Source: Pseudomonas sp. PDNC002 (lineage in GTDB: Bacteria; Pseudomonadota; Gammaproteobacteria; Pseudomonadales; Pseudomonadaceae). Taken from it: a stretch of 64,000 nt of DNA. Positions 12,129-34,062 of the stretch are shown here, one piece after another; the first letter of the stretch is position 1, and each line of letters starts with the position of its first letter. Made by a program: the position numbers and the translations under genes. The stretch lies in assembly GCF_016919445.1 (NCBI RefSeq), contig NZ_CP070356.1, forward strand, positions 5,893,502-5,957,501, read 5' to 3'. Under the pieces are notes generated by a model. That model searched no databases. It was given only the letters and a program-made list of their open reading frames with translations, and was not told the DNA's origin.

Positions 12129-14291
12129 ATGGAATGGCACAAGGACGCCTTACCCGATGCTGTGCTGCTGGAGTGTTCTCACAATCCCGGACTGGTCCTG
12201 CTGTCCATCCTGATCGCCTGCGTCGCCAGCTTCGTCGCCCTGAGCATCACCGCGCGCATGGTCCGCGCGCCACAGCACGCACACCGCTGGCAGTGGGTGG
12301 GCGGCATCTGCCTGGGCAGCGGCATCTGGTCGATGCATTTCGTCGCCATGCTGGCCTTCCACTCGACAGTCCCGCTGCATTTCTCCGGCGGGATGACGCT
12401 GCTGTCACTGCTCATCGCCATCACCATCTCGGTGGTCGCCATGCGCCTGCTCGCCCATGCCGGGCTGAGCCCCCTGCAATACCTGCTCGCCGCCTGCTGC
12501 ATCGGCACCAGTATCGCCGGCATGCACTACACCGGCATGGCCGCCATCGAATCGCCGCCCATGCAGCACTACGACCCGCTGCTGGTGACCCTGTCGGTGC
12601 TGATGGCCGTGCTGGTCGCCTTCGTCGCGCTGGTGCTGGCACCGGTCCTGAATCGGCAACCGGCCGGCCGCCAGTGGATCTACCAGATCACCGCCAGCCT
12701 GCTGCTGGGCTGCGCCATCGCCAGCATGCACTTCACCGGCATGGCCGCACTGACACTGACCCTGCCCAGTTGGGTGGCGCCGGTGGCGGATGTCGGTCGC
12801 AACAACGCCATCCAGCTCGGCCTGATGGTCGGCCTACTGTCCCTGGCGGTGGTGCTGGCCGGGCTCTGGGCGGCCTGGATCGAAGACAGCCTGGAAAGCA
12901 AGGAGAGCGAGCTCAGCCGGGTCAACACGCTGCTCACCCAGCTCGACCACGCCAATGCTTCATTGCAGCAGCTGGCCCGCTTCGACGGATTGACCGGCCT
13001 GCACAACCGCAACGCGCTCAACGAGGAGTTCGATGCTCGCCTGCAACGCAACCGGCAGAAGGGCCAGGGCATGGCGGTGATCCTGCTGGACCTGGACCAC
13101 TTCAAGCGGGTCAACGACACCCTCGGCCACGCCGCCGGCGACGAGTTGCTGTGCATCGTTTCCGAGCGCATCCGCAGCGCATTGCGCAGCACCGACCTGC
13201 TGGCGCGCTTTGGCGGCGACGAGTTCTGCATCCTCGCCGACCTGGGCGAGGACCACGAGGCGCGCATCCTCGCCCAGCGCCTGATGCAGCGCATGAAGGA
13301 GCCGATCAGCACCGCCGGGCGCAGCCTGGTGATGACCCTGAGCGTGGGCATCAGCCTGTTCCCCAACGATGGCGAACAACCCGAGGAGCTGCTCAAGCAC
13401 GCCGACCTCGCGCTGTACCAGTCCAAGGGCAACGGGCGCAACGTCACGCATTTCTTCAGCCCGCACCTGAAGACCAAGGCGACCCAGGAACTGCAGCTAG
13501 AGGAGGAGCTGCGCAAGGCGCTGTGGGACGACGAACTGGTGCTCTACTACCAGCCGATCCTGCGCATCGATCATGGGGAAGTGGAGCAGCTGGAAGCGCT
13601 GGTACGCTGGAAGCACCCGACCCACGGCCTGCTGGCGCCGGACCGATTCATCGGCCTGGCAACGGCCAACGGCCTGATCGGCGCCCTGGATTCCTGGGTG
13701 TTGCGCCGGGCCTGTCGGGACCTGCGGCACCTGCATGACCTGGGTTACAGCGACCTGCGCGTGGCGGTCAACTGCTGCGCCAGCAACCTGGGCCGCGAAG
13801 GCCTGGTGGACGAAGTGCAGCAGACGCTCGACGAGGCCGGTCTCGCGCCACGCTTCCTGGAGATGGAAGTCACCGAGAACGCCGTGATGGCCAACGTCAG
13901 CCAGGCCGTGCCGCTGCTCAACCGCCTCCGCGACCTGGGCGTGAGCCTGTCCATCGACGACTTCGGCACCGGCTATTCATCGCTGTCCTACCTGCGCCAG
14001 CTGCCGCTGGATGCACTGAAGGTGGATCGCTCGTTCATCCGCGACGTGCCGCAATCACGCCGCGACGCCGAGATCGCCCAGGCCATTATCGCGATGGCGC
14101 AGAAGCTGCACCTGAAGGTGATTGCAGAGGGCGTGGAGCACGCGCAGCAACTGACGTTCCTGCGGGACAACCATTGCGAGCTGGCCCAGGGATATCTGTT
14201 CAGCCGCCCGCTGCCACTCTCCGCGCTGGTGGAATTCCTCGACGCCTACCGCGAGGACAGCGACGCGGTGCTGCTCAGCAATCAGGCCTGA
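12129..14291 (+). CDS. nbdA: MHYT-GGDEF-EAL membrane c-di-GMP enzyme (NbdA-like)
   Basis: A 720-residue protein. An MHYT sensor of about seven helices carries M-H-[FY] motifs near residues 68 (SMHFVAM), 130 (GMHYTGM) and 199 (SMHFTGM), proposed to bind copper and sense NO or O2. The diguanylate cyclase domain has an intact GGDEF (362-366) with an RSTD inhibitory site five residues before it. The EAL domain looks active: EAL near 489-491, then EVTEN, DDFGTGYSS, DALKVDRSF, IAEGVE and QGY. P. aeruginosa NbdA, from memory, has a degenerate AGDEF, so this homologue may be bifunctional. NbdA drives NO-induced biofilm dispersal. GGAG lies about 12 nt before the chosen ATG. Confidence 0.9.
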   Translation: MEWHKDALPDAVLLECSHNPGLVLLSILIACVASFVALSITARMVRAPQHAHRWQWVGGICLGSGIWSMHFVAMLAFHSTVPLHFSGGMTLLSLLIAITISVVAMRLLAHAGLSPLQYLLAACCIGTSIAGMHYTGMAAIESPPMQHYDPLLVTLSVLMAVLVAFVALVLAPVLNRQPAGRQWIYQITASLLLGCAIASMHFTGMAALTLTLPSWVAPVADVGRNNAIQLGLMVGLLSLAVVLAGLWAAWIEDSLESKESELSRVNTLLTQLDHANASLQQLARFDGLTGLHNRNALNEEFDARLQRNRQKGQGMAVILLDLDHFKRVNDTLGHAAGDELLCIVSERIRSALRSTDLLARFGGDEFCILADLGEDHEARILAQRLMQRMKEPISTAGRSLVMTLSVGISLFPNDGEQPEELLKHADLALYQSKGNGRNVTHFFSPHLKTKATQELQLEEELRKALWDDELVLYYQPILRIDHGEVEQLEALVRWKHPTHGLLAPDRFIGLATANGLIGALDSWVLRRACRDLRHLHDLGYSDLRVAVNCCASNLGREGLVDEVQQTLDEAGLAPRFLEMEVTENAVMANVSQAVPLLNRLRDLGVSLSIDDFGTGYSSLSYLRQLPLDALKVDRSFIRDVPQSRRDAEIAQAIIAMAQKLHLKVIAEGVEHAQQLTFLRDNHCELAQGYLFSRPLPLSALVEFLDAYREDSDAVLLSNQA

Positions 14292-33244: not shown

Positions 33245-33286
33245 CGACTGGCCGTGTCTGCCTATCTTAAGACTGGTGACAGAATG

Positions 33287-33299
33287 TGTCTGACAGACA
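33287..33299. promoter_or_regulatory. Palindrome upstream of the MshEN-domain gene
   Basis: TGTCTG-A-CAGACA is a perfect odd-centred 13-bp palindrome, 43 bp before the ATG of the MshEN-domain gene. It lies just downstream of a possible -10 (TATCTT, 33263-33268). It may be an operator; no regulator is recognised. Confidence 0.3.
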
Positions 33300-33342
33300 A
33301 TGATTGCACCACGCCATCATTGCGCCCCACGAAGCCAACTCC

Positions 33343-34020
33343 ATGCCCAGCCAACAGAACTCCCGTCTCGGTCAGATCCTTGTCAGCAAAGGCCTGATCA
33401 CCTCGCAACAGCTGGACAAGGCCATCCAGCTCCAACTCACCAACGGCCTGCGCCTGGGTGAAACGCTGATCCAGCAGGGCTGGATCAGCGAACGCCAGCT
33501 CGGCCGAGCGCTGAAGAAGCAGAACAACCTGCGCCTGACGGCCACACTGGTCGCCGCGCTACTCAGCCCGTTCCAACTGGCCAGCGCCGACGTGCAGCGC
33601 CAGGCGCCGATCAGCATCACCCGCCACGAGGCGCCCAAGGGCCTGAAGCCGCTCAGCGACCGCGAGATGAGCGATGTCAGCGCCCAGGGCTTCGACGATA
33701 CGTTGCAGGGCCTGCTGGTCAGCGCCGAAAGCGGTGACGGAGTCGGTACGGTCAAACAACTGGCCCGTCTGGTCATGCCGGTGGTGGACAGCCTGGACGC
33801 CGAAACGTCACTGCAGGACGTGCAGTACGACACCCTGCACGCCTCTTCCACGCTGAACGCCGATGGCTCGATCAACGTGCGTCTGCCCAGCTCCATCGGC
33901 GAGGTGCGCTTCGACAATATCCGCGTCGCCGGCGCGCCCAAGACCCAGAGCATGGGCAGCCTGAGCCTGCAGAACATCGACCTGTCCCAGGCCTCGCTGA
34001 AAATCAGCCTGCGCCACTGA
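33343..34020 (+). CDS. Membrane protein with N-terminal MshEN (GspE/PilB N-like) c-di-GMP-binding-type domain
   Basis: A 225-residue protein. Residues 8-31 and 37-60 are two 24-residue copies of the MshEN motif (RLGxxLxxxGxIxxxxLxxAxxxQ), separated by exactly five residues (LTNGL), the spacing known for c-di-GMP-binding MshEN domains. There is no ATPase domain. A hydrophobic segment follows (about 64-82, LTATLVAALLSPFQLASA) that looks like a membrane anchor or internal signal. The remainder (about 83-225) has LSDREMSDVSAQG, reminiscent of a motif in exported DUF6160-like proteins, and beta-rich repeats (INVRLPSSIGEVRFDNIRV). Inferred topology: cytoplasmic sensor, one crossing, periplasmic domain. 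Probably PA3740-like; function unknown. Confidence 0.75.
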   Translation: MPSQQNSRLGQILVSKGLITSQQLDKAIQLQLTNGLRLGETLIQQGWISERQLGRALKKQNNLRLTATLVAALLSPFQLASADVQRQAPISITRHEAPKGLKPLSDREMSDVSAQGFDDTLQGLLVSAESGDGVGTVKQLARLVMPVVDSLDAETSLQDVQYDTLHASSTLNADGSINVRLPSSIGEVRFDNIRVAGAPKTQSMGSLSLQNIDLSQASLKISLRH

Positions 34021-34036
34021 GGCCGACCTGCCATGA

Positions 34037-34062
34037 AAGAAGGCGCCCACGGGCGCCTTCTT
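34037..34062. terminator. Bidirectional terminator between MshEN-domain and thioesterase genes
   Basis: AAGAAGGCGCCC / GGGCGCCTTCTT palindrome between two convergent genes, with U-rich exits of modest length on both strands. Confidence 0.75.

Follow-up and report, generated by a model that had tools for sequence, protein, structure and literature searches.

The 225-aa protein encoded at 33343..34020 of the window (the whole stretch of DNA that was analysed, 64,000 nucleotides from Pseudomonas sp. PDNC002) is best read, with a probability of roughly 0.5, as a FilA-like protein that responds to c-di-GMP and serves a Fil-type pilus as a minor subunit or as a regulator of its assembly. In its sequence the ligand contacts of an MshEN domain are intact and are followed by a signal-like segment, a leader in the register of C39 peptidases and a tail with remote similarity to FilA, and the gene co-occurs with that of FilB; export, cleavage by FilB, joining of the pilus and gating by c-di-GMP are what we infer. 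The features are located as follows:

33261..33280, + strand: conserved upstream element CCTATC-N8-GGTGAC, from an alignment of 13 upstream regions
33276..33304, + strand: promoter-like pair GTGACA-17-AATGAT (1 found, 0.0 expected in shuffles)
33343..34020, + strand: whole open reading frame, 225 aa, orthologue of P. aeruginosa PA3740
33364..33435, + strand: MshEN motif 1, residues 8-31, from NF053729, with contacts R8, L9, L24, I28 and Q31
33451..33522, + strand: MshEN motif 2, residues 37-60, from NF053729, with Q60 in 46/46 homologues
33523..33588, + strand: signal-peptide-like segment, residues 61-82 (R64, core 65-75, P76, A80-S81-A82 site)
33643..33687, + strand: double-glycine-like leader, residues 101-115, cut predicted after Q115 from the register and the FilA-leader alignment
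33688..34017, + strand: putative exported domain, residues 116-225, FilA/DUF6160-like, with the C-terminal ~45 residues most similar
34037..34062, no strand assigned: 11-bp inverted repeat after the stop codon, possible two-way terminator, read by eye

Gene context and the MshEN domain

The open reading frame described in the earlier note was confirmed at 33343..34020, and its ATG start is kept in the Pseudomonas orthologues compared. The whole protein is single-copy in its own genome, the P. aeruginosa PA7 orthologue (L078) shows 70% identity, and the uncorrected pN/pS against four orthologues was below 1 in every region except the linker. The gene is preceded by xerD and followed by rplS in 59 of 62 Pseudomonadaceae loci, and the PAO1 gene at the xerD-rplS place is PA3740. 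At six loci outside Pseudomonadaceae the neighbours (named by eye, e.g. thioredoxin-reductase-like and SecF-like) gave no functional clue, and a PADLOC search returned no match.

Upstream of the gene, CCTATC-N7/8-GGTGAC followed by ATGAT was conserved in the 13 aligned regions, both promoter-like hexamers lie largely within conserved columns, and an exact match to the element was found at 53 of the 62 Pseudomonadaceae loci. The element goes with this gene, since an NhaP gene stands between xerD and the gene in only 28 of the 62 loci; a search of the fil locus of the same genome (L114) did not find it there. In L061, L065, L078 and L085 the element was seen by eye to form part of an inverted repeat, GTCACCC/GGGTGAC, which is possibly an operator over the -35. 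The program's site search listed no terminator-like site after the gene.

The NCBIfam MshEN profile NF053729 matched residues 8-60 with 67.5 bits (cut-off 38) over 53 of 53 profile positions, in agreement with the near-ideal motifs at residues 8-31 and 37-60, separated by the spacer LTNGL, that had been noted earlier. Pfam gave no match above its cut-offs for the protein, and sub-threshold Pfam matches to DUF4388, fumarase and nitrile hydratase, which fall on the MshEN helices, were set aside. By phmmer, V. cholerae MshEN (5htl, E 3.5e-8) and the N-domains of PilF/PilB were matched. NF053729 matched at E up to 0.1 in 45 of the 46 aligned homologues, the set including L097, which is without an MshEN domain. 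Using the contact residues named in PMC5013675, numbered via the offset from the 5htl alignment, the VcMshE-contact equivalents were kept in 44 (R8), 44 (Q31), 44 (R37), 42 (L53), 44 (L57) and 46 (Q60) of the 46; R8, L9, G10, L24, Q31, R37, L38, G39 and Q60 were each kept in 44-46, and the turn glycines G17 and G46 in 39 and 43, respectively. As had been claimed, no ATPase domain follows in Pfam and NCBIfam searches. By its sequence, residues 8-60 are therefore a complete MshEN c-di-GMP-type domain without an ATPase.

The MshEN finding itself is not new, since c-di-GMP binding and an MshEN domain have already been published for the orthologue PA3740. In the parts of these papers that were available, PA3740 is listed as MshEN-bearing, with LxxxLxxQ as the binding motif, and is called a swarming motility protein, part of which is an uncharacterised domain (PMC5013675); c-di-GMP-binding peptides are reported for it (PMC8789108), of which LKKALKKQTNLR matches LRKALKKQTSLR of the PA7 protein; its MshEN is called 'probably functional' in a figure legend (PMC12943098); and it is aligned as characterised (PMC9765702). 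It is further reported that PA3740 deletion did not lower biofilm in c-di-GMP-overproducing fleS and fleR mutants, in a paper that labels it a PilZ protein (PMC8335546), that it was upregulated in a relA spoT mutant (PMC7122816) and that it was lowered in a motABmotCD mutant (PMC3174259). No PilZ match was found by Pfam in the window's PA3740 orthologue. The protein is thus like PA3740 in sequence and gene order, but the signal, the C39 leader and the Fil link are not in the published descriptions of PA3740 as far as these were available; among the literature matches listed, a partial collection, there was no link of PA3740 to Fil or to a C39 leader, and export, leader and Fil coupling are unreported in that collection.

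The protein's own genome holds two further MshEN places above the cut-off. Further proteins that combine MshEN with a signal but end in different short tails were observed in L196, L197, L198, L204 (family f38), L202 (f28), L222 and L224 (G069, G067); nine f38 genomes carry a second MshEN match beside the homologue of the 225-aa protein, and the MshEN protein encoded in G063 lacks a signal-like segment. The c-di-GMP enzyme that had been noted at 12129-14291 of the window is indeed an MHYT-GGDEF-EAL protein, and no link between it and the 225-aa protein was seen.

Signal-like segment, C39-type leader and FilA-like tail

A membrane segment had been proposed at residues 64-82. A hydrophobic stretch is present there, but its core is only 11 residues long (65-75), and it resembles a signal peptide. 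The 11-residue core, in which D, E, K, R, N, Q, H and P do not occur, is shared by all 46 homologues, R64 and P76 are invariant (46/46) and A82 is kept in 44. The peak 19-residue hydropathy of the 46 homologues averaged 1.34 (1.09-1.82), compared with 1.44 (1.32-1.78) for 13 FilA/DUF6160 signal peptides and 1.63-2.56 for 11 NhaP windows, which had been preselected at >=1.6. In L097 and L203, homologues without MshEN, a signal-like N-terminus was seen by eye at the same place, and these proteins keep signal and leader in genomes where FilB is present. The short core, the FilA-like hydropathy and the MshEN-less homologues that start with such a segment favour an internal Sec signal peptide, with cleavage predicted. 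Signal peptides are usually less conserved than residues 61-82, and because its conservation is high for a disposable signal peptide, a role of the segment as an anchor or in signalling is possible.

The exported-type tail with LSDREMSDVSAQG (residues 104-116) described earlier is present and probably exported, but its C39-type leader and its likeness to FilA had been missed. Compared with the double-glycine leader consensus, LSDREMSDVSAQ followed by G fits the register cut by C39 peptidases, L104-S105-x-x-E108-M109-x-x-V112-x-A114-Q115/G116, where the slash marks the predicted cut (L-12, S-11, E-8, M-7, V-4, A-2, Q-1). The leader was also paired with the FilA leader by hhalign, and the pilus-like PDB chain 9xfv begins at the residue directly after the GQ of the FilA profile, which is consistent with a cut there, the deposited sequence possibly not being the mature form. 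The pN/pS of the leader was 0.25-0.30; for the preceding linker, three of the comparisons gave 0.50-1.04 and the remaining one 0.17.

The leader was recognised by its pattern in 39 of 42 homologues from FilB-positive genomes (all loci read, some nearly identical and the window's own included), the other three (L178, L186 and L205) deviating only at -8, and in 0 of 5 homologues from FilB-less genomes; the numbers expected in shuffles were 0.33 for the first 35 FilB-positive homologues and 0.05 for the first 4 FilB-less ones. In the order sample it was read in all 39 homologues, 36 by pattern and three differing only at -8. The five leaderless homologues (L098, L199, L200, L201 and L220, one from Endozoicomonas) have MshEN, the signal-like segment and the C-terminal domain in genomes without FilB. 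With such relatives in at least five FilB-less genomes, MshEN and tail can function as a unit in the absence of FilB. They may represent an earlier or a reduced version that functions uncleaved.

On profile comparison, the tail shows a distant relationship to FilA, the subunit of the Fil pilus. Against a profile of 13 FilA/DUF6160 proteins, hhalign gave 95.0% probability (E 3.8e-8, 113 columns) and a score of 52.8, with <=19.9 among 100 column-shuffle decoys; without the signal the probability was 89.4%, and with the mature parts alone it was 90.3% over 45 C-terminal columns. The mature-part score was 39.5 and its decoys reached <=25.7, except one in 100 and one in 150 that scored 131-135. In the outlier of the 150-decoy run only 15 columns were aligned, and it was taken as an artefact. 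The tail is called FilA-like and is not filed as DUF6160 because its Pfam score, 14.9 bits, missed the gathering cut-off of 27; a DUF6160 match at E up to 0.1 was obtained in 13 of the 46 homologues. For Acinetobacter Tol 5, PMC11784438 gives FilA as the subunit of the Fil pilus, and two A. baumannii studies found FilF, or FilC and FilF, raised in pellicle or biofilm. The FilA profile matched the whole chain of 9xfv, 'bacteria pilus (like)', at E 1.7e-13, and the tail profile searched directly against PDB gave two weak matches only, to 9xfv at E 0.088 and 1.1. The 9xfv entry, with 25 chains, is related to FilA/DUF6160, and a solved relative therefore exists for FilA-type subunits.

A LapD-like inside-out receptor had been suggested for this protein, and this is one option, which we consider unlikely. 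LapD combines cytoplasmic c-di-GMP sensing with HAMP and degenerate GGDEF-EAL domains, and its output is linked to a cysteine peptidase (LapG). Here the segment would remain an uncleaved anchor, and c-di-GMP on MshEN would alter the periplasmic domain, which would act on a component of Fil, for example FilB or FilC. The segment is conserved beyond the needs of a throw-away signal, the link to a C39 cysteine peptidase recalls LapD-LapG by analogy, and some weight is added by the leaderless relatives in FilB-less genomes. However, the core of 11 residues, the invariant Pro and the AxA site speak against an anchor, cleavage at the segment would cut the sensor from its output, the likely cleavable segment is followed by a domain that resembles a substrate (leader, FilA-like), and no HAMP, EAL or GGDEF match was found by Pfam in the protein. 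Signalling through an intact anchor is possible but not favoured.

A further alternative, which we regard as improbable, is that what is exported serves simply as a regular Fil subunit and that the MshEN half left at the membrane acts alone as a c-di-GMP receptor on the motility machinery. This would fit the AxA site and the description of PA3740 as a swarming motility protein in the available part of PMC5013675; the leaderless relatives lend it some weight, and the MshEN-signal proteins with quite different tails in related genomes suggest that the MshEN half may have a role of its own. What speaks against it is that MshEN and tail are joined in 45 of the 46 aligned homologues, although the patterns used to collect this set came from both halves.

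Co-occurrence with FilB

In the genome of the 225-aa protein, FilA-, FilB-, FilC- and FilD-like genes stand in a row (L114), with the gene of the 225-aa protein not beside them. All four are under the curated NCBIfam cut-offs (FilB 292 of 475), and the FilB-like gene at G000:C1:3370059 is a Peptidase_C39 by Pfam, its FapD similarity being below cut-off. The locus (L114:3900-9200, G000:C1:3369531-3374700) comprises FilA, the FilB C39 peptidase, FilC and FilD-like genes together with a weakly MalM-like protein and is preceded by a gene for a MalT-like LuxR-type regulator; its FilB- and FilC-like proteins show sub-threshold similarity to FapD and FapF as well.

FilB was counted at E 1e-40 or better in the order and family samples and at >=170 bits in the relatives sample, and weaker C39 matches (~80-118 bits), the sole kind in G006, G014 and G022, were left out as likely FapD or other C39. 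Among the 391 genomes of the order sample, 39 had a profile match past residue 130 and 58 had FilB, with 39 shared, and no match past residue 130 was found among the 333 FilB-less genomes. Six genomes with an N-terminal match only were left out of the 39: in G065, G158, G319 and G429 the tail is akin to the C-terminal domain but without a leader, and FilB is absent; G325 has a different tail, and the G342 match is truncated at the edge of its contig; counting the leaderless tails, the figure becomes 39 of 43. Among the 398 genomes of the family sample, 64 had the gene and 66 had FilB, with 63 shared and FilB alone in G054, G546 and G667. The exception, G484 (P. boanensis, L096), carries a decayed remnant in which residues 131-224 are in two frames without MshEN or signal. 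The L096 remnant keeps the upstream element, and its genome is without FilB at E 1e-40. In the relatives sample of 95 genomes, 30 shared both, and FilB alone was found in G054, G074 and G082.

Fisher tests, which ignore ancestry, gave P 1.1e-39 (order) and 1.7e-68 (family); counted by genus, the agreement was 16/16 among 137 (P 8e-16, order) and 6/6 among 19 (P 4e-5, family). In the own genus, 22 of 25 genomes had both gene and FilB and 3 had neither, the latter also being without DUF6160. As a control, MshEN matches located in ORFs 577-893 aa long showed no association with FilB (5/13, P 0.49). The near-exclusive pairing with the FilB-like peptidase suggests that the c-di-GMP signal controls part of the Fil pilus. 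The gene was missing from 19 of the 58 FilB-positive genomes of the order sample, including both above the FilB cut-off (G373 and G449), indicating that Fil does not need it and that the gene is accessory. The least probable of the alternatives is that gene and fil are kept in the same lineages by shared ancestry only, with no functional link and another periplasmic role for the tail: it would accord with the tests' disregard of phylogeny, the separate chromosomal positions, these 19 genomes and the leaderless relatives that live without FilB, but against it stand the joint absence in the own genus (3/25), the presence of gene and FilB in the same 6 of 19 genera of the family sample, the state of the sole FilB-less case of that sample, a remnant, and the absence of the leader only in FilB-less members.

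Proposed mechanism and related systems

In the preferred reading, a c-di-GMP-responsive subunit or regulator of the Fil pilus, the MshEN domain would stay in the cytoplasm and bind c-di-GMP, and the internal Sec signal would carry the rest of the protein across the inner membrane into the periplasm, where cleavage after the leader (AQ/G) by the FilB-like C39 peptidase would release the pilin-like domain to join or prime the Fil fibre. Binding of c-di-GMP to MshEN would decide between anchoring of the segment and its release and processing, and c-di-GMP would thereby set Fil assembly directly. An immediate signal peptidase cut would count against this reading, since c-di-GMP could then not act on the output. 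A more specific version, offered tentatively and somewhat doubtful, is a pre-pro-pilin with a c-di-GMP switch ahead of the Sec signal, in which the ligand would decide export, signal cleavage and FilB maturation of a Fil-starting or Fil-capping subunit. MshEN as a pre-signal 'gate' may be general, as MshEN-signal proteins with unrelated tails occur in related genomes.

The closest systems differ from the protein in arrangement. The FilA family (DUF6160, PF19657; NF050077) shares the signal, a leader ending in (G/A)Q and the C-terminal stretch, but the FilA-like proteins aligned have no MshEN, whereas the 225-aa protein has one and is encoded away from fil. The V. cholerae MshE N-domain (5htl) shares the two 24-residue motifs, the 5-residue spacer and the contacts, but belongs to an ATPase, while here MshEN precedes an export signal. 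With LapD, the protein would share cytoplasmic c-di-GMP sensing and, possibly, a periplasmic output tied to a cysteine peptidase. FapD and the C39 double-glycine systems resemble the FilB-like protein, likewise a Peptidase_C39, but here a cytoplasmic sensor domain and then a Sec-type signal precede the leader.

The position of MshEN ahead of a Sec-type signal is unlike its settings in ATPases and glycosyltransferases. If the Fil coupling is true, a c-di-GMP control point would be added to a poorly known pilus class, and a cytoplasmic signal would be passed outward via export or maturation of a single subunit. The Fil link would also give the PA3740 family, whose output part is so far uncharacterised in the partial literature collection, a testable output.

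Two further places in the same genome were recorded. L116:4075-7261 (G000:C1:6380.6-6383.8 kb) encodes, side by side, three DUF6160-like proteins that look exported, two of them above the Pfam cut-off and one below it, with leaders ending in GQD, GAG and GQG and no NCBIfam match. At L117 (G000:C1:2945439-2945567), a short ORF whose MshEN match is partial and above cut-off adjoins a gene that by eye is ABC-type export permease-like.
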